From Halorubrum sp. GN11_10-6_MGM (lineage in GTDB: Archaea; Halobacteriota; Halobacteria; Halobacteriales; Haloferacaceae), in contig NZ_SGUC01000026.1 of NCBI RefSeq assembly GCF_005435165.1, forward strand, positions 1 to 42,893: a stretch of DNA of 42,893 nt. The letters are read 5' to 3'. The translations under genes and the position numbers were made by a program. Below are positions 21,512-29,875 of the stretch, piece by piece. The notes under the pieces are model-generated. The model ran no database searches. It worked only from the letters and a program-made list of their open reading frames with translations, and was not told where the DNA came from. Position 1 is the first letter of the stretch; each line of letters opens with the position of its first letter.

Positions 21512-22066
21512 TCACGCCGCGTCGCGTCGCTCGTAGGTGACGAACGCGAGGTCGCCGTCGGTCTCCCGGTGGCGTTCGACCCACGCCTCGGCGTCCCACT
21601 CCGGGAATCTGGTGTCGCCGTCGGGACGCTCGGGGATCTCGGTGACGACCATCCGGTCGGCGCGGTCGAGGAACGCCTCGTACACCGTCGCGCCGCCGAT
21701 GACGTAGACGGCGTCGACGCCGCGGGCGCCGGCGTCGGCGGTCGCGCGCTCGACGGCGTCCTCGATGCCGTGGGCCACGACCGCGCCGTCGGGGAGGTCG
21801 TCGTCATCGATCGGGCGGGTAGTCAACACGACGCTGGTGCGGTCGGGGAGCGGGCCGCCGAGCCGGTCGGCGATGCCCGCGTACGTCTTCCGGCCGACGA
21901 TCACCGGGTGGCCGGTCGTGAGCCGCTTGAAGTGCGCGAGGTCCGCGGGGTAGTGCCACGGCATCCCGTCGTCGTCGCCGATGGTCCCGTCCTCGGCGAC
22001 CGCGGCGACGAGGACGAGATCGGGGTCGGCGGGCGCGCTCCCGTCGGCGCCGTCGGCGTCCGCCAT
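21512..22066 (-). CDS. folA: Dihydrofolate reductase
   Basis: The product is 184 aa. It reduces dihydrofolate to tetrahydrofolate with NADPH. Family motifs are VAAVAEDGTIGDDDGMPWHYP (15-40, including the M-P-W substrate loop), a catalytic acidic residue at about Asp42 (ADLAHFKRL), VIVGRKTY (55-62), and VYVIGGATVYEAFL for NADPH binding. A 15-residue Asp/Ala-rich N-terminal extension precedes the first strand. Its ATG overlaps the thyA stop by one base (TGATG), so it is translated by coupling with thyA. The pairing makes sense because ThyA produces dihydrofolate that FolA recycles. Confidence 0.93.
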   Translation of the reverse strand: MADADGADGSAPADPDLVLVAAVAEDGTIGDDDGMPWHYPADLAHFKRLTTGHPVIVGRKTYAGIADRLGGPLPDRTSVVLTTRPIDDDDLPDGAVVAHGIEDAVERATADAGARGVDAVYVIGGATVYEAFLDRADRMVVTEIPERPDGDTRFPEWDAEAWVERHRETDGDLAFVTYERRDAA

Positions 22067-23094
22067 CACTCGGCGACCGCGAACGAGATGCCGTCCGCGG
22101 AGTCGTAGTCGACGACCTCGACGTCCTCGTAGGTGAGCTCGTCGAGCGGCACGTCCGCGATCTCGATCCGCGGCCGGTCGCGGGGGGTCCGCGAGAGCTG
22201 TTCGAGGAGGCCGGGCACGTGGTCGTACTCCTCCTGTCCGTTCGGCTCGTCGGGGGCGGTGCGCTCGACCCAGCTCTTCACGTCGAGGTACCCCTCCTTG
22301 CGCTCGACGTTCGCGAGCCGCTCCTGAACGTACCGGAGGTTGTTCGCGTACCACTTTCCGCGGTCGCCGCGGCCGCAGTAGACGTGCGCGTCGACGACAG
22401 TGTGGCCGAACTCGCCGACCTCGAAGCCGGTCCGCTGGGCTAAGGCGTTCGCGAGCAGCGCGTACGCCGCGATGTTGAACGGGACGCCGAGCGCGATGTC
22501 CCCCGAGCGCTGCGTCAGGTGGAGGTTGAGCCGACCGTCTTGGACGTTCACCACGAAGGTGTAGTGACAGGGCGGCAGCGTCGAGACGGCGGCGTTCGCG
22601 GGATGCCACGCGTTCACGACCATCCGGCGGGAGTGGGGGTTCTCTTCGAGCGTGTCGAGGACGTACTGGATCTGGTCGAAGGTGCGTCGCGTCGTCCCGT
22701 CGGCGTCCTCCTCGACGGTGACCCAGCGCTCGGCGTCGTCGGGCCACGTCTCGCCGGGGAGCGCGGCGTCGTCGTCCGGAACCGGGTAGCGGCGCCAGAA
22801 CCGCCCGTACGCCGTGTCGAGCCTGCCCTCGTCGTCGGCCCACGCGTCCCAGATCTTCGTCTCCTCGCGGAGGTTCCGGACGTGCTCCTCGCCGGAGAGG
22901 TACCACAGCACCTCGTGGATGAGCGAGTTCCAGCGGTAGCCGTCCATCTTCTTGGTGGTTAAGAGAGGGAATCCCTCCGCGAGATCGACGGTGTACTGCC
23001 CGCTGAACGTCGCGATGGTGTCGACGCCGGTCCGGTTCGGCTTGTACGTGCCCGTCGAGAGCGCGTCGTCGACGAGGTCGAGGTACTGTTGCAT
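22066..23094 (-). CDS. thyA: Thymidylate synthase (ThyA type)
   Basis: The product is 342 aa. It methylates dUMP to dTMP using methylene-tetrahydrofolate. The catalytic Cys176 is in the LPPCHYTF motif. QRSGDIALGVPFNIAAYALL and the phosphate-binding HSRRMVVNAWHP are intact, as is the N-terminal FPLLTTKK. An acidic insertion (about residues 105-135) between the conserved blocks is typical of haloarchaeal enzymes. It starts at the ATG at 23094; the spacer up to 23236 contains AT-rich ataaca and ttattagg elements on the - strand, but no single TATA box at the leaderless distance, so a leader of some tens of nt is likely. Confidence 0.94.
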   Translation of the reverse strand: MQQYLDLVDDALSTGTYKPNRTGVDTIATFSGQYTVDLAEGFPLLTTKKMDGYRWNSLIHEVLWYLSGEEHVRNLREETKIWDAWADDEGRLDTAYGRFWRRYPVPDDDAALPGETWPDDAERWVTVEEDADGTTRRTFDQIQYVLDTLEENPHSRRMVVNAWHPANAAVSTLPPCHYTFVVNVQDGRLNLHLTQRSGDIALGVPFNIAAYALLANALAQRTGFEVGEFGHTVVDAHVYCGRGDRGKWYANNLRYVQERLANVERKEGYLDVKSWVERTAPDEPNGQEEYDHVPGLLEQLSRTPRDRPRIEIADVPLDELTYEDVEVVDYDSADGISFAVAE

Positions 23095-23236
23095 TGGTGG
23101 TGTCCCGCGCCGGGACGGACGGCCGCCGGCGCGGACTGTTATCGGGTGAAACGAGTCGGGACACCTAATAACGTTGATCCAACGGCCGACCTCGGCCGGG
23201 ACCCGAGCGGGTTTACGGGAGGATCGTTTGGTGGCG

Positions 23237-23833
23237 TCATCGGTACCGTTCAGGCACGTATGGGTCCAGTACCGCCGGTAATAGCGGGAAGAACACCGCG
23301 GCGGCGTCCGCGAGGCGCCGACGGAGGACCGCGTACACGGCGGCGACGATCACCGTGGCGACGACGAGCCGGCGGAGCGGCCCGTCGAGCAAGAGATACA
23401 GCGGGACCGACAAGGCGACGGAGAGTGCGAAGTCCTCGACTGCGCCGTCGTACCGGACGCCGCGGCGGGGGGCGATCCACCGCTTCCGGTGGTGGTCGTA
23501 CACCGCCTTGTTGGAGTTACCCTCCCACGGGCGGAGCTCCAGCCCGCCGCCGTACATGTCGGTGACGCTGTGGAACGCCGCGCCGAGGAGGAAGAACGCG
23601 ACGCCGACCGTGACCGGCGACGGCGCCAACACCGCGGCGAGCAGCGCCGGAGCCGCGATCACCGGGTAGTACACCGGATAGTGGAGCGTCCGCCGGTGGC
23701 CGACGTACATGTCTAGGTCCGGCGTGAGGCCGCCGAGGAAGCCGGCGGCGAATCCGATCGGTGCCAGCTCCGGCACCAGAAATGCCAGCGGAGCCGCGAG
23801 CAGCATCCCCGCCAGCACGTGGGTCGGAAGCAT
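23237..23833 (-). CDS. YdjM-like membrane-bound metal-dependent hydrolase family protein
   Basis: The product is 198 aa with about four to five membrane helices. It has the family pattern of histidines and acidic residues close to membrane faces: LPTHVLAGMLLA, GFLGGLTPDLDMYVGHRRTLHY and LLGAAFHSVTDMYGG. These could hold a metal, and members are annotated as putative hydrolases (LexA-regulated YdjM in bacteria). The substrate is unknown. The frame also allows a GTG one codon upstream (23836); a TATA-like gctcatatac (23861-23870 on the - strand) sits about 28-32 nt upstream of both, so either may be used. A 20-nt palindrome lies just upstream of this promoter. Confidence 0.8.
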   Translation of the reverse strand: MLPTHVLAGMLLAAPLAFLVPELAPIGFAAGFLGGLTPDLDMYVGHRRTLHYPVYYPVIAAPALLAAVLAPSPVTVGVAFFLLGAAFHSVTDMYGGGLELRPWEGNSNKAVYDHHRKRWIAPRRGVRYDGAVEDFALSVALSVPLYLLLDGPLRRLVVATVIVAAVYAVLRRRLADAAAVFFPLLPAVLDPYVPERYR

Positions 23834-23860
23834 CACAGTACACGAGTCGAGGCGACAAGC

Positions 23861-23870
23861 GTATATGAGC
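23861..23870 (-). promoter_or_regulatory. TATA box of the YdjM-like gene
   Basis: The - strand reads gctcatatac, about 30 nt upstream of the GTG/ATG start pair at 23836/23833. Confidence 0.5.
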
Positions 23871-23884
23871 GTGTCGCCCGTCGT

Positions 23885-23904
23885 GCGGCGTGTTTACACG
23901 CCGC
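23885..23904. promoter_or_regulatory. 20-nt palindrome, 9-2-9
   Basis: The arms gcggcgtgt and acacgccgc are exact reverse complements around tt. It lies 15 nt upstream of the TATA box of the YdjM-like gene and 32 nt beyond the stop of the small gene at 23936. It could be an operator for a dimeric regulator or an RNA hairpin ending the upstream transcript; there is no T-tract right after it on either strand. Confidence 0.5.
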
Positions 23905-23935
23905 TGCGCCGAGCGAGCGCGGACAGACGCGCCGC

Positions 23936-24322
23936 TCAGTGGAGGTACTCGAACGCGATCCGGACGTCGTCGTGTTCCTCGACGTCTTCCTTCACGCCGC
24001 GGAGCCCCTCCGCGATGTCGCGCCACTCCTCCGACCCGGACTCGGTCTCCTTGACGAACCGCCGTAAGACGGTCTCGGCGTCGGTCTCGACCGTCCGCGG
24101 AAGCAGCACGAACGTCTCGTCGCGGACTGCCGGTCCAATCTTGAGCCGGATCGCCTCCCCCTCCCGGATCTCGTGATAGAGGTCCCGTGCTATCTTCCGG
24201 TCCGGATGGTCGTAGCTGAGATCCTCGACCGCGTGGTGGAGCAGCCGCTGTATGGTGTCTCGGTCCGCGTTGTCGAACAGCGGCAGGGAGCGGCAGAAGA
24301 GCGTGTCCGGGGGAGTAGACAT
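23936..24322 (-). CDS. Unknown small acidic protein in the pentapeptide/phosphoesterase cassette
   Basis: The product is 128 aa, soluble, with no signal peptide and no membrane helix. The N-terminal STPPDTLFCRSLPLFDNADR is followed by a helical segment (DTIQRLLHHAVEDLSY), then HPDRKIARDLYHEIREGEAI, a strand-rich middle (RLKIGPAVRDETFVLLPR), and a charged helical C-terminus ending HDDVRIAFEYLH. I do not recognise the family. The ATG is 31 nt after the stop of the pentapeptide gene, with its own TATA-like sequence (- strand aaattaatacc) 27 nt upstream that overlaps the end of that gene. It can therefore be made with or without its neighbour. Local GC is lower than in flanking core genes by eye. 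Confidence 0.65.
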   Translation of the reverse strand: MSTPPDTLFCRSLPLFDNADRDTIQRLLHHAVEDLSYDHPDRKIARDLYHEIREGEAIRLKIGPAVRDETFVLLPRTVETDAETVLRRFVKETESGSEEWRDIAEGLRGVKEDVEEHDDVRIAFEYLH

Positions 24323-24344
24323 ACCGATTCCTGTTCGACCGGTG

Positions 24345-24364
24345 GTATTAATTTCACCGGTGAA
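24345..24364 (-). promoter_or_regulatory. Promoter of the small unknown gene overlapping a 12-bp palindrome
   Basis: On the - strand, aaattaatacc (24345-24354) is centred 27 nt before the ATG at 24322. Immediately upstream is the perfect palindrome ttcaccggtgaa (24353-24364), which also contains the stop codon of the pentapeptide gene. A site adjoining a TATA box could regulate TBP/TFB access; that is inference. Confidence 0.45.
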
Positions 24365-26507
24365 CGCTCCGCGTCAACGCGAAGATGAACAGTCCGATCA
24401 TGAACGCGCCGATGAACCCCTCGGTGGCCACGAGGAAGCTGCCGAAGAACTGCGGGACGCTCGCCGTCGACCCGAAGATGAGGGACGTGAACGACTGGAA
24501 GCTCAACAACAAGTATCCGAACTCGGTCTCGAAGGGCGGCGTCCCGACGGTTATCCGGAAGAGCAGCGCGTACCCGACGACGACCACGAGGGAGAACTCG
24601 AGGGTCCGCCGCGGCTTCTCGCCGTAGCCGCAGGTCAGCGAGAGGATCGCGTTGAGTGTCGCGAGGAACAGGAGCTTCAACCGCGTGCCTGTCGCCTCCG
24701 ACCGGTCGAGAACCCGGTCAACGTACGCTCGCCGGCGGTACCACATCTCCTTCATGAAGAACCGCGAGGCGGCCTGACTGTCCCCGCTCATCTCGGCCCC
24801 GTTCTTCGCGTTCAGATACGTAACCTCTAGGTCGGACGCGTTTGCGGTCCCGAGCAACCCCTCCGACGCGGACGAGAGCCGCCGTCGCAGGCGTTCCAAG
24901 AGCCCGGCGCGGTCGGCGGACCGATCGTCGCCGGCCGCCTCCTCGCCGTCGTCGCCGTCTGGATCCAGCGAGAACCGGTTCGCCTCCATCTCGTAGTCGC
25001 TCCGCGTGGAGCCGGAGAACGTGTGGAGGTTCCAGTCCGGCGAGAGGACGTCCCGGTAGTCGGAGAAGTTGAACTCCTCGAACTTCGTGCGGTAGACGTA
25101 GAAGTGGTCGAACACCCGTTCCGAACCACTCATCTCGATGTCGACGTCCCCGATGCGTCCGTCACGGAAGTCGTAGTAGGCCGTCTCGCCGTTCTGCTGG
25201 ACGAACGCCCCCGCCCGGACGTGCGCCTCCGTGAAATCCAGAGTCACGCTCGGTGCGGCCGTCTCGAGGTCTCGGAACTCCCCCCGCTCGATGCGGCTGT
25301 CGGCCAGAATCGCGCTCGCCTGGAAGGTCGTGCGCTCGAAGTGGGCCGTCCCCCCGAAATCGGCGTGGCGGAAGTCGGCGTCACCCTCGTAGACGACCCG
25401 GTCGAAGAAGGCGTCGTCGTGGAACGTCGCCTTCATGAAGCGGGCCACGTCCCCGAACGTCGAGTACCTGAAGTCGGCCAACCGGTCGAACGAACTCTCG
25501 TGGAACGACGCGTACTCGCCGAAGTCTACGTGTGCGAAGTACGTGGTGTTCCGGAACGCGCAGTACGACAGCACCGCTTCGCCGGAGAACTCGGCGAAGT
25601 GAAACTTCACCTTCCCCTCGAAGACGGTCTCGATGAAGGAGGCCTCGGAATGGAACTCCCCGTTCTGGTAGTGCGCGGGACCGACGAACTCGGCGTTCTT
25701 GAACAACGCCTCGGACTCGAACGCGGACCCGATGAACAGGACCGCGTCCCGAAACACGCTCCGCGAGAACTTCGCGGTCCCGTCGAACTCGACGGCGCGG
25801 AACTCGGCGACCTCCTCGAAGCGGCTCCCGTAGAAGTCGGCGGTCTCCCCGAACGACGCCCGCTGAAAGAGACACTCCCCGACCCATGTCGACTTCGTGA
25901 AGTCCGCCCGTCCCCCGAACGACGCCCGGTAGAAGTCGGCCTCGCCGCCGAACTCGGTCAACGCGAACCGGACGTCGCCCTCGAAGCGGGCGTCGGCAAA
26001 CCGACAGTCGTCCCTGAACCGAACCTTCCGGAGGTCGACATCCCCCCGGAAGACCGCGTGCGAGGCGTTGATGTCCTCGTCGAACTCGGCGTCCGAGAAG
26101 TCGAACGCGCCGTCGACGACCGCACCGCTCAGTAACACCGGCTGCTGGATGACGGTTTGCTCGGCGCGCACGTCACCGTCGACGGTCGCGTGTCGGAGGT
26201 CGATCGGCGTGTTCGAGCCTCGGTTGACGACGCGGTGCGAGAGGTCTACATCGCCGAAGTTCGCGCCGACGTACCGCGTCGGTCCCGCGTCCCGTCCGAC
26301 GAGGTCGTCCCGAAACGCCTTGGCAACCTCCGCGTCGGTGATCCCGACCTCTGAGCGCCGCTCGGCGGGCAGGTGGAACTCGCAGCGGTCGGTGCCCTCG
26401 ACGGCCTCCCGGGGGCAGCTCCACTCGGATTCGAGGTGGGCAGGTCGACCGTGCTCGGCCTCCCACTCCGCCGGAACGAACCGGTACGCACAGTGCTGTG
26501 ACGACAC
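24354..26507 (-). CDS. Pentapeptide-repeat protein with C-terminal channel-like membrane domain
   Basis: The product is 717 aa. The N-terminus (about 1-50) has Cys and His in a zinc-finger-like pattern: Cys6, then CPREAVEGTDRCEFH. Residues about 80-440 are pentapeptide repeats in ten-residue units (ADFYRASFGG, ARFMKATFHD), which form a right-handed beta-helix. A linker with an acidic segment leads to a helical region (SRFFMKEMWYRRRAYVDRVL) and the C-terminal membrane part (about 598-717): FLATLNAILSLTCGYGEKP, LEFSLVVVVGYALLFRI, a pore-loop-like GYLLLSFQSFTSLIFGS, and EGFIGAFMIGLFIFALTRSV. The last two resemble the pore and inner helix of two-TM ion channels, though the selectivity filter is not canonical. 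The start is GTG, because TATA-like ggataagc lies about 35 nt upstream. The ligand is unknown. Confidence 0.8.
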   Translation of the reverse strand: MSSQHCAYRFVPAEWEAEHGRPAHLESEWSCPREAVEGTDRCEFHLPAERRSEVGITDAEVAKAFRDDLVGRDAGPTRYVGANFGDVDLSHRVVNRGSNTPIDLRHATVDGDVRAEQTVIQQPVLLSGAVVDGAFDFSDAEFDEDINASHAVFRGDVDLRKVRFRDDCRFADARFEGDVRFALTEFGGEADFYRASFGGRADFTKSTWVGECLFQRASFGETADFYGSRFEEVAEFRAVEFDGTAKFSRSVFRDAVLFIGSAFESEALFKNAEFVGPAHYQNGEFHSEASFIETVFEGKVKFHFAEFSGEAVLSYCAFRNTTYFAHVDFGEYASFHESSFDRLADFRYSTFGDVARFMKATFHDDAFFDRVVYEGDADFRHADFGGTAHFERTTFQASAILADSRIERGEFRDLETAAPSVTLDFTEAHVRAGAFVQQNGETAYYDFRDGRIGDVDIEMSGSERVFDHFYVYRTKFEEFNFSDYRDVLSPDWNLHTFSGSTRSDYEMEANRFSLDPDGDDGEEAAGDDRSADRAGLLERLRRRLSSASEGLLGTANASDLEVTYLNAKNGAEMSGDSQAASRFFMKEMWYRRRAYVDRVLDRSEATGTRLKLLFLATLNAILSLTCGYGEKPRRTLEFSLVVVVGYALLFRITVGTPPFETEFGYLLLSFQSFTSLIFGSTASVPQFFGSFLVATEGFIGAFMIGLFIFALTRSVHR

Positions 26508-26577
26508 GGGTACCCTCTACCGAGCCAGCACTCGCTACCGGCTTATCCCTTGCGGCTTCTCGCGGAGCGCCGGTCCG

Positions 26578-27339
26578 TCAGTCCACGACGAAGGAGGTCT
26601 CCGTCCGGTCCCGGACCCGGACGTCGACGTCGATTCCGTCGCCGATCGTCACGACGCCGTAGGTCCCGGTGAACGCCTTCTCCGGCGTCTCCTTGCTGAA
26701 CGCGTTCACCGACACGTGGGACATGCCGTGGAACGTCGAGAAGCCGCTCTGATGAATGTGGCCGCTGATAGTCCCCCTCGCGTCCGCATCGTCTAGGAGT
26801 CGGAGCGCCTCCTTCCGGTCGTACAGGTAAGCTCGCTCGGGGTACTCGCTGAACCAGACGTTGCCTGACAGATCGAAGTTCCCGAATGGGTGGTGACAGA
26901 GCACGAGCGACCCGGGACGGTCCGCGAGCGCGCGGTCGAGCCACTCGCGCTGGTCAGACCCGAGCTCGCCGCGGGCACCGGCCGCGCGTGTGTGTGTCGA
27001 ATCTAGGAAGACCACCGCCTGCCCGCCAACCTCGCACGTTCCGTAGAACTGGTCCTGATCAAGCAGGTCGGACAGCCTGTCGTGGCCCAGGTTCTCGACG
27101 TCGTGGTTCCCTAGCAGGTACGTTGTCGGGAAGGGGGCGTCGTCGAACACCTCCCTGACCGTTTCGACGTGCGCCGCGTCGACGTCGGGGTCGTCGGCTT
27201 CTTGGATCAGGTCCCCGAGGACGAACGCGTGGTCGGGTCGATCGCCGAGGCCCGAGACAGCCTCCCGGAGCTCCGAGGCGATCCTGTCTGCGTGCTCCGA
27301 ACGGAGGTGGATGTCGGGAAAAATGGCGACCTGAGGCAT
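26578..27339 (-). CDS. Metallophosphoesterase (calcineurin-like)
   Basis: The product is 253 aa and probably cytoplasmic. All motifs for a two-metal centre are present: FPDIHL (Asp9, His11), GDL (42-44), GNHD (77-80), CHHPFG (148-153) and GHIH (193-196). Such enzymes hydrolyse phosphomonoesters or phosphodiesters, including cyclic nucleotides (3',5'-cAMP phosphodiesterase CpdA has a similar layout) and nucleic acids; the substrate here is not evident. A TATA-like aacctatagg (27376-27385) lies upstream, giving a 5' leader of around 13 nt. It is first in a same-strand run with the pentapeptide protein gene (70-nt gap) and the small unknown gene. Confidence 0.88.
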   Translation of the reverse strand: MPQVAIFPDIHLRSEHADRIASELREAVSGLGDRPDHAFVLGDLIQEADDPDVDAAHVETVREVFDDAPFPTTYLLGNHDVENLGHDRLSDLLDQDQFYGTCEVGGQAVVFLDSTHTRAAGARGELGSDQREWLDRALADRPGSLVLCHHPFGNFDLSGNVWFSEYPERAYLYDRKEALRLLDDADARGTISGHIHQSGFSTFHGMSHVSVNAFSKETPEKAFTGTYGVVTIGDGIDVDVRVRDRTETSFVVD

Positions 27340-27375
27340 GTGTGGGGCGTAAGCGAACCAACGCCGGTCCCCCGC

Positions 27376-27385
27376 CTATAGGTTT
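27376..27385 (-). promoter_or_regulatory. TATA box of the phosphoesterase gene
   Basis: The - strand reads aaaacctata, about 40 nt before the ATG at 27339. It could drive the whole three-gene cassette down to 23936. Confidence 0.45.
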
Positions 27386-27487
27386 TGGTTCGGCGGGGAG
27401 GGGGAGAGCCGACCGGTCCCGACGCGATCCGGGGACGCGGACGGGCCTCGTCCGGCGGGCCGCCGGCACGACGCCGTCCCACAGACC

Positions 27488-27496
27488 GTTTATATC
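27488..27496 (+). promoter_or_regulatory. TATA box of the aminotransferase gene
   Basis: The sequence gtttatatc is centred about 26 nt before the ATG at 27518, a classic leaderless arrangement. Confidence 0.65.
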
Positions 27497-27517
27497 CCGT
27501 CGCCCGAACCGAGGCGT

Positions 27518-28603
27518 ATGCTCATGACGCCCGGACCGACCGCGGTCCCCGAGCCGGTGCGCGAGGCGATGTCCCGCGAGCTGATAAACCCCGACGTGGA
27601 CCCGCGGTTCCGGGAGATCTACGACCGACTCACCGACCGGCTCGCGGCGGTGTACGGCGTCGATCCGGACGTTCCCGCCGCCGCCGGCGGCCGCGACATC
27701 GTCGCGCTCGGCGGCGAGGGAATCCTCGGGCTGGAGGCGGCGATAGCCTCGCTCGTCGAGCCCGGAACCGAGGTGCTGTGCCTGTCGAACGGACTCTACG
27801 GCGAGGGGTTCGCCGACTTCGTCGAGTCGTCCGGCGGCGAGGCGACGGTCGTCGCGGCCGACCGCGACGAGCCGCTCCCGCTCGACGCGCTCGACGACGC
27901 GTTAGCGGCCGACGACGCCGACTTCGACCTCGTCACGATGGTCCACTGCGAGACGCCGACGGGGGCGCTCAACGACGTCGACGCCGCGCTCGACCGCGTC
28001 GAGGCCGCCGACCCGGAGCTCCTCACCGTCGTCGACGCCGTCTCCTCGCTCGGCGCGGTCCCGGTGCCGACCGACCGGATCGACGTGTGTCTGGGCGCGT
28101 CACAGAAGTGTTTCAGCGCGCCGCCGGGGCTCGCGACGGCCGCGGTGAGCGAGCGCGCGTGGGCCGCGATGGAGGCGCGGGACCCGCACTCGCTGTACGC
28201 GAACTTCCTCCCGTTCCGCGACGTGAGCGACGGGTTCCCGTACACGCACCTCACCACCGAGGTCGTCGCGCTCGACGCGGCGCTCGGCCTCCTGCTCGAC
28301 GAGGGGATCGACGCGGTCCGGGAACGCCACGCGTCGGCAGCGGTCCGGTGTCGCGAGCGCGGCGCGGAGCTGGGACTGGAGACCGTTCCCGGTCCCGAGC
28401 GGAGCTCGCCGACGGTGACCGCCTTCGAGGTGCCCGGCCGGGCCGAGGCGCTTCAGGAGCGACTGCGCGAGGAGCACGACGTGATCCTCGCGACGGGGTT
28501 GGGGGAGGGAGCCGAAGACATCCTTCGGGTCGGCCACATGGGCCACAACGCCCGCGTCGACCGCGTCGAGGAGACGATGGACGCGCTCGCCGCGGTGCTG
28601 TGA
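27518..28603 (+). CDS. Class V aminotransferase (alanine-glyoxylate / serine-pyruvate type)
   Basis: The product is 361 aa. It is PLP-dependent: the Schiff-base lysine is Lys197 in CLGASQKCFSAPPG, and the pyridine-N ligand is Asp173 in LTVVDAVSSLG. The N-terminal MTPGPTAVPEPVREAM is the signature of the SgaA/AGT subgroup, which transfers amino groups between alanine or serine and glyoxylate or pyruvate. Phosphoserine or a related amino acid is a possible alternative substrate. An ATG two codons later (27524) could also serve, but the TATA spacing fits 27518. It is divergent from the phosphoesterase and stands alone. Confidence 0.9.
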   Translation: MLMTPGPTAVPEPVREAMSRELINPDVDPRFREIYDRLTDRLAAVYGVDPDVPAAAGGRDIVALGGEGILGLEAAIASLVEPGTEVLCLSNGLYGEGFADFVESSGGEATVVAADRDEPLPLDALDDALAADDADFDLVTMVHCETPTGALNDVDAALDRVEAADPELLTVVDAVSSLGAVPVPTDRIDVCLGASQKCFSAPPGLATAAVSERAWAAMEARDPHSLYANFLPFRDVSDGFPYTHLTTEVVALDAALGLLLDEGIDAVRERHASAAVRCRERGAELGLETVPGPERSSPTVTAFEVPGRAEALQERLREEHDVILATGLGEGAEDILRVGHMGHNARVDRVEETMDALAAVL

Positions 28604-28888
28604 GCGCGGATTGAGAACGCCCCGCACGCCGCCGGAACGTTGAATCATCACGTGGCGGGACGTTCACACATGGCGTCGCCACGCGAGGCGATTCGGGAGC
28701 GCGGCGCCGGTGACCGACAGCGACAGACCACAGGGGACCGCGCCGAGATAGCCGAGGGCGATCGACTCCACGTTCCGGATGTGCGAGCGGGACTGATTGG
28801 TCGCGTGCGCGAACGGCAACGGCGTGCTCCGGGACTCCTCACCGCGGCCGGAACGCCCTTGCGTCCGCCGCGATCATATCGGGTCGAC
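28604..28888. other. Intergenic region before the aldo-keto reductase
   Basis: These 285 nt hold no convincing gene. The frame of the following gene stays open from 28640, but the translated extension (Arg/Gly-rich) has no homologous look and is a high-GC artefact. The only AT-rich motif near the start, gatcatatcg (28871-28880), is just 13 nt before the ATG, too close for a leaderless promoter from that ATG, so the real promoter or start of the next gene is not settled. Confidence 0.5.
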
Positions 28889-29875
28889 ATGAATCACCGC
28901 GAACTCGGCGAGGTCGGCGCAGTCAGCGAGGTCGGCTACGGCGCCTGGCAGATCGGCGGCGACTGGGGCGAGGTGACGGAAGCGGAGGCGGTCGCGGCGG
29001 TCGAGGCCGCCCGCGACGCCGGGATAGACTTCTTCGACACCGCGGACGTGTACGGCGACGGGCGCTCGGAACGGATCGTCGGCGAGGTCCTGGCGGACGA
29101 CATCGCGGCCGGCGACGTGACCGTCGCGACGAAGGCCGGGCGCCGGCTCGACCCGCACGAGGCCGACGGCTACACGGAGGCGAACCTCCGGCGATTCGTC
29201 GACCGCTCGCGCGAGAACCTCGGGATGGAGACGCTCGATCTGGTCCAGCTCCACTGCCCGCCGACGGACGTCTACTACCGGCCGGAGACGTTCGACGCGC
29301 TCGAAACGCTCGCCGACGAGGGTCGGATCGCGAGCTACGGCGTCAGCGTCGAGCGCGTCGAGGAGGCGTTAAAGGCGATCGAGTATCCCGGCGTCGAGAC
29401 GGTGCAGATCATCTTCAACCCGTTCCGGCAGCGGCCGGCCGAGCTGTTCCTCGACGAGGCCGCCGCGCGCGACGTCGGCGTGATCTGTCGGGTCCCGCTC
29501 GCGTCGGGGCTCCTCACGGGCGCGCTCTCGCGCGACCACGAGTTCCCCGAGGACGACCACCGCAACTACAACCGCGAGGGCGAGGCGTTCGACGTCGGCG
29601 AGACGTTCGCGGGCGTCCCCTTCGAGGCGGGCCTCGACGCGGTCGACGCGCTCGACGAGCGCCTGCCGGACGACCGCCCGCTGCCCGAGTTCGCGCTGCG
29701 GTGGATCCTCGACCACGACGCCGTCTCGACGGTGATCCCGGGGTCGACGACGCCAGAGCACGTCCGGGCGAACGCCGCCGCGAGCGAGGCGCCCTCGCTC
29801 TCGGACGCCGAGCGCGACGCCGCGAGCGAGGTGTACGACGAACACGTGCGCGAGCACGTCCACCAGCGCTGGTGA
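28889..29875 (+). CDS. Aldo/keto reductase family oxidoreductase
   Basis: The product is 328 aa, a soluble TIM barrel using NAD(P)H. Catalytic residues are visible: Asp and Tyr in DFFDTADVYGDGRSER, Lys in VTVATKAGRRL, and His in LDLVQLHCPPTDVYY. C-terminal cofactor-binding elements are STVIPGSTTPEHVRANA. The substrate is not predictable; haloarchaeal members may reduce sugars or aldehydes. The ATG at 28889 (NHRELGEVGAVSEVGYGAW) matches family N-termini. The neighbours are the aminotransferase upstream (285-nt gap) and the convergent FAD/Fe-S oxidoreductase downstream (74-nt gap). Confidence 0.9.
   Translation: MNHRELGEVGAVSEVGYGAWQIGGDWGEVTEAEAVAAVEAARDAGIDFFDTADVYGDGRSERIVGEVLADDIAAGDVTVATKAGRRLDPHEADGYTEANLRRFVDRSRENLGMETLDLVQLHCPPTDVYYRPETFDALETLADEGRIASYGVSVERVEEALKAIEYPGVETVQIIFNPFRQRPAELFLDEAAARDVGVICRVPLASGLLTGALSRDHEFPEDDHRNYNREGEAFDVGETFAGVPFEAGLDAVDALDERLPDDRPLPEFALRWILDHDAVSTVIPGSTTPEHVRANAAASEAPSLSDAERDAASEVYDEHVREHVHQRW

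Follow-up and report, generated by a model that had tools for sequence, protein, structure and literature searches.

The 42,893-nt stretch of haloarchaeal DNA analysed here (the window; the entire contig C120 of a 3.3-Mb genome, G000) encodes a phosphoesterase, a pentapeptide-repeat protein with a membrane domain and a small soluble protein side by side, and the question is whether these three genes form one unit and what such a unit would do. All three lie on the minus strand: a metallophosphoesterase gene at 26578..27339 (253 aa; PF00149, class III cNMP phosphodiesterase/GpdQ-like), a gene for a pentapeptide-repeat, putative pore protein at 24354..26507 (717 aa, GTG start; PF13576 and a C-terminal two-helix pore domain), and an orphan soluble protein gene at 23936..24322 (128 aa). 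The gaps are 70 nt between the enzyme and pore genes and 31 nt between the pore and small genes, so that the same-strand arrangement given in a preliminary description of this DNA was confirmed at the level of the open reading frames. That description had also judged the GC content to be low by eye. Computation agreed, giving 0.655 for the cassette against a window mean of 0.706, the lowest value of all 3.4-kb stretches in the window, and the third-position GC of the cassette was also below that of most adjacent genes.

Insertion sites and transfer of the cassette

We used window positions 22066-29875 as a DNA query against same-genus genomes. The left flank (ending near 23876) and the right flank (beginning near 27486) adjoined each other with 13-88 nt between them in 16 of the 52 genomes, and the junctions were read in nine of these 16. 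The complete inserted segment is 23877..27485 (about 3.6 kb, no strand assigned), and given that the flanks are joined in the 16 congeners where it is missing, the insertion contains only the three cassette genes. The acquisition suspected beforehand from base composition was thus borne out.

One of the 16 genomes with an empty window site, G395, nevertheless carries the cassette, on contig C94, with the same gene order and strand and 69% DNA identity to the window copy across the three genes; the flanking DNA of G000 and G395 is 86-89% identical. In G395 the cassette is placed directly after a tRNA-Thr gene, and the corresponding tRNA-Thr site in G000 (contig C179) is empty, with a gap of 63 nt. 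Since the window site is empty in G395 and the tRNA-Thr site is empty in G000, the two genomes provide reciprocal empty-site controls. A third copy was found in G023, which belongs to another family, in low-GC DNA with a DDE transposase on one side and a tyrosine recombinase (integrase) on the other. The proposal of one cassette therefore held, as all three genes are adjacent again in two further genomes, and their presence at different sites in relatives, together with the empty sites, marks them as a mobile gene cassette: the three genes are one mobile unit, transferred together as a block. Such block-wise transfer to different sites suggests that the three proteins work together. Mere chance adjacency of genes without shared function, which has on its side only the stand-alone homologues of two of the three genes, is ruled out by the reciprocal empty sites; with the three-gene set repeated at three unrelated sites, two of them empty in relatives, we consider its probability close to negligible.

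In neither insertion do the two edges share direct or inverted repeats of at least 9 nt, and the cassette contains no recombinase gene; it has moved by means other than a recombinase of its own, perhaps by homologous or element-borne transfer. The tRNA-Thr site used in G395 is itself an insertion hotspot of the genus (L093-L094 in G331, L092 in G358 and L095 in G393), where the inserts measure about 29 kb, 10 kb and 1.6 kb; the largest encodes a type IIG-like restriction-methylase together with a pentapeptide protein.

The three genes diverge to a similar degree. Protein identities for the enzyme, the pore protein and the small protein were 57, 56 and 58% between the window and G395 copies, and 45, 40 and 50% between the window and G023 copies. 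The dN/dS values between the window and G395 (NG86; rough at such distance) were about 0.45, 0.48 and 0.64 for the three genes, which indicates purifying selection on all of them. In all three copies the small gene follows the pore gene on the same strand after a gap of 31-38 nt. The enzyme gene also adjoins the pore gene in each copy and is on the opposite strand in G023, indicating that the adjacency persists without a common operon.

We then considered how widely the cassette is distributed. Searches with the small-protein profile gave two positive genomes each in the order (392 genomes searched), the family (170) and the genus (52), and two strong matches among 295 genomes of the phylum; these genome sets overlap, and the positive genomes were always G000, G395 and G023, in all three of which the enzyme and pore genes lie beside the small-protein gene. 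The small protein was absent from the plasmid and phage records searched. Pattern scans, which are weak evidence because the patterns were strict, returned nothing for the pore and small proteins in genome contigs and nothing for any of the three proteins in viral contigs. Relatives of the enzyme and of the pore protein occur in other genomes without the remaining cassette members, and the pentapeptide gene, which as a conserved core gene would have spoken against a cassette, was found not to be core.

Pfam, NCBIfam and PADLOC gave no significant match for the small protein, and among the several hundred genomes searched it was found in the cassette context only. Its copies share an invariant core, LPLF..DRD..QRLLHHAVED..YDHPDRK.ARDLYH.IREG.A.RL, and a C-terminal YLH. 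One weak match, in G136, was antisense to a likely gene and missed by the profile, and was dropped. A 465-aa protein encoded in low-GC DNA of G006 (contig C9; L098 1303-2700) has an N-terminal part that weakly resembles the small protein, with a score of 20 bits where 2000 shuffles gave at most 7.7; it may, by this resemblance, be a remote relative, and no relatives of the 465-aa protein itself were found.

The invariant order and spacing of the pore and small genes, beside an enzyme gene whose orientation flips, would also suit a toxin-antitoxin-like pair, in which the pore protein would be the toxin, the small protein its neutraliser and the enzyme an accessory that tunes or repairs, so that the unit would persist by addiction and not by protecting its host. 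The mobility and rarity of the unit agree with this explanation. However, 717 aa is very large for a toxin, the candidate toxin gene lies upstream of its partner gene, and many relatives of the pore protein stand alone, with no partner of this kind. We regard the toxin-antitoxin-like explanation as a serious rival, although an improbable one.

The pore protein and its channel-like relatives

The 717-aa protein matched PF13576 pentapeptide at 6e-43 in 8 stretches (Pfam), and its assignment as a pentapeptide-repeat protein was tested on these. A Cys/His cluster (C6, C31, C42, H45) is located at its N-terminus. The C-terminal 178 residues (24354..24890, minus strand) comprise a conserved linker, TYLNAKNGAEMSGD.., and two hydrophobic helices, placed by hydropathy at about 636-654 and 691-709, with a degenerate filter. 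The pore-like membrane domain named in the preliminary description was thus found again as two hydrophobic helices, which are homologous to Ion_trans_2 domains of paralogues. At the position where K+ channels have TTLGYGD, the window copy has SFTSLIFGS, and the aligned position in the three cassette copies reads TSLIFGS, TSLIFGP and NAIILGV, none of which is a TxGYG-type filter.

Among the aligned relatives, those with a TTLGYGD-type K+ filter, two giant paralogues of G000 among them, formed one group; the other group, whose members have lost the filter, includes all three cassette copies and many stand-alone proteins. Four of the five filter-bearing domains tested scored above the cut-off of PF07885 Ion_trans_2 (best 4.6e-13), while the cassette pore domains gave no direct match to Pfam channel models. 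An hhalign comparison of the filter-lost and filter-bearing group profiles placed the filter positions opposite each other and gave a probability of 99.9%. The weak PDB matches of a profile built from the two groups together were all chains of the K+ or cyclic-nucleotide-gated channel type (best E 0.015). Judged by sequence, the cassette pore domain is derived from Ion_trans_2 channels, because the profile alignment, the PF07885 matches of the filter-bearing domains and the channel-type PDB chains agree on this origin. Single-sequence structure predictions were of low confidence (mean pLDDT 45 and 43.5).

Stand-alone pentapeptide-pore relatives occur in many haloarchaeal genomes; G000 alone has four paralogues, some with a normal K+ filter. 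The giant proteins of G000 are 1340, 1189 and 1355 aa long (L055 5747-14183 on C135; L056 5792-9859 on C119), and two of their genes stand in tandem around a 204-aa gene. In the alignment of their C-terminal domains, TTLGYGD is kept in two and TLEYVNG takes its place in one.

The genomic surroundings of the cassette consist of mobile-element or housekeeping genes, and no defence gene was found directly beside any of the three copies. A 1245-aa neighbour in G023, considered as a defence enzyme, was rejected, as it is a PAS-GAF-HTH_10 regulator. This lack of adjacent defence genes and the commonness of stand-alone paralogues in haloarchaea, some of the four in G000 retaining the K+ filter, would fit a second serious rival, an accessory module for osmotic, ion or envelope stress with no link to conflict, in which the pore protein would sense a cytoplasmic ligand or the state of the membrane, and the enzyme and partner would adjust it under certain salt conditions. 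On the other hand, a patchy distribution with reciprocal empty sites is less characteristic of basic osmotic control than of genes that serve conflict or a particular niche, and we hold a pure stress module to be possible but rather unlikely.

The phosphoesterase and its neighbourhoods

The enzyme matched PF00149 at 6e-11 (Pfam) and has an intact metal site. All its metal ligands (D9, H11, D43, N78, H79, H150, H194, H196) are conserved, and the motifs DxH, GD, GNHD, H and GHxH, as in class III cNMP phosphodiesterases, are invariant in A4 and A9. The best named enzyme matches were the SpdA and 3',5'-cAMP phosphodiesterase models and Rv0805, and the SpdA model was distant, at 45 bits against a cut-off of 400. 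The closest PDB profile match was the GpdQ-type phosphohydrolase 2zo9/2dxl. What had been called a nuclease/phosphodiesterase-like enzyme thus looks like one of the small-molecule phosphodiesterase type, and less like a nuclease.

In a nine-sequence tree, the cassette enzymes grouped with two non-cassette haloarchaeal enzymes. Given that the nearest non-cassette homologues stand alone or in an ABC-transporter operon, a metabolic phosphodiesterase also fits. The homologue in G076 (Halopenitus persicus) is at the end of such an operon, near a HAD phosphatase, and this neighbourhood, by analogy, favours a metabolic role of the enzyme family. Together with the GpdQ-type match, it raises the possibility that the cassette enzyme acts on glycerophosphodiesters or phosphonate-type compounds and merely travels with the other two genes. 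Its adjacency in all three cassettes, in both orientations and with a divergence equal to that of the other genes, argues against a passenger, and we consider this explanation quite unlikely.

A more distant branch of the enzyme family, in G023 and G107, adjoins a cyclase-domain fusion protein and a 3-TM protein, a neighbourhood which would favour, also by analogy, a nucleotide-signal role. The cyclase domain matched PADLOC PycC at 3e-18 and 2e-15, while the 3-TM protein of this Pycsar-like module had no PADLOC match. The module, which includes the phosphoesterase gene, occupies L053 5283-8952 in G023 and L052 7104-10776 in G107; in its fusion protein the class III cyclase domain is joined to a TFIIB repeat and a methyltransferase domain, and the 3-TM proteins are 206-215 aa long with 2+1 TM helices. 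In another genome (G060:C3, L050 7909-9926), a 405-aa ORF, seemingly an insertion sequence, interrupts a related phosphoesterase gene.

A candidate signal-controlled pore and its known counterparts

Our leading reading, which we put forward tentatively, is that of a rare mobile accessory haloarchaeal cassette, transferred as one unit, that would encode a signal-controlled membrane pore. The effector would be the 717-aa protein, with a cytoplasmic pentapeptide beta-helix joined to the Ion_trans_2-derived pore domain; given that the K+ filter is missing, the pore, if open, would be poorly selective. The small protein, encoded directly downstream of the pore gene in every copy, would bind the 717-aa protein as a dedicated partner or gate. 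The phosphoesterase would set the state of the pore by removing a phosphodiester signal, which would probably be a cyclic nucleotide. The haloarchaeal cytoplasm contains molar K+, so that growth would cease if the pore escaped regulation, in keeping with a role in conflict or stress. The reading draws on the co-transfer and matched divergence of the three genes, the constant pairing of pore and small genes, the channel homology and the enzyme matches. Against it count the blank PADLOC result, the PF00211 cyclase missing from G000 and G395, the surroundings of the nearest non-cassette enzymes, the lack of a direct Pfam channel match and the stand-alone pentapeptide-pore relatives of many genomes.

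A defence role is attractive because the cassette is rare and mobile; it is plausible but unproven. The preliminary description had recognised a layout of defence or signalling modules here, and its molecular part, a phosphodiesterase-type enzyme beside a pore-related protein, was retained. The functional part is kept as a candidate role only, in view of the blank PADLOC result (at E up to 1, none of the three proteins was assigned to a family), the mobile-element and housekeeping neighbours and the missing standard ion filter. Its statement that no known system has this content agreed with our searches, including PADLOC, and no description of the gene combination was found in the literature searched, whose coverage leaves out most subscription journals. 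A bolder reading, to which we assign a low probability, would be an undescribed archaeal immunity module: a non-selective pore tethered to the pentapeptide part would be controlled by the phosphodiesterase and a dedicated small gate protein, with the trigger coming from the cyclic nucleotides of the cell itself or from their disturbance by a virus.

For work on archaea, the cassette is of use as a small unit of three genes open to experiment: its borders are sharp, genomes with empty sites serve as natural controls, and its orphan protein is seen in this context only. It also directs attention to a family of channel-derived domains in which the K+ filter has been lost. Should pore and enzyme prove to be linked, the cassette would represent an archaeal pore module under a nucleotide-type signal, possibly a stress or virus-defence switch. 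In that case it could also supply a haloarchaeal cyclic-nucleotide phosphodiesterase; in Halobacterium salinarum, cAMP has been measured and an adenylate cyclase gene is present, and no phosphodiesterase had been identified as of 2007 (PMC1906763).

Compared with the Ion_trans_2 (PF07885) K+ channels, the cassette protein has the same two TM helices around a pore segment, with homology traced via the paralogue domains, whereas it differs in its SFTSLIFGS-type filter, its beta-helix and its zinc-finger-like N-terminal part. The stand-alone haloarchaeal pentapeptide-pore proteins share its architecture, the N-terminal C..WxCPR..DxCxFHL motif and the TYLKAKNGA linker, but in the neighbourhoods examined have no small protein or phosphoesterase alongside. 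The enzyme belongs to the calcineurin-like phosphoesterase family together with GpdQ and the class III cyclic-nucleotide phosphodiesterases Rv0805 and SpdA, with which it has all metal ligands in common; in contrast to them, it is distant in sequence and encoded with a pore protein. Pycsar consists of a class III nucleotidyl cyclase and a TIR/TM effector, whereas none of the three cassette genes encodes a nucleotidyl cyclase, class III cyclase (PF00211) is absent in two of the three hosts (G000 and G395), and the effector would be a pentapeptide-pore protein, in which neither Pfam nor PADLOC found a TIR or PycTM domain. The cassette, as we read it, would share with Pycsar the idea of a cyclic-nucleotide-type signal coupled to a membrane effector, and in G023 and G107 a PycC-like cyclase and a 3-TM protein do have a related phosphoesterase as their neighbour.
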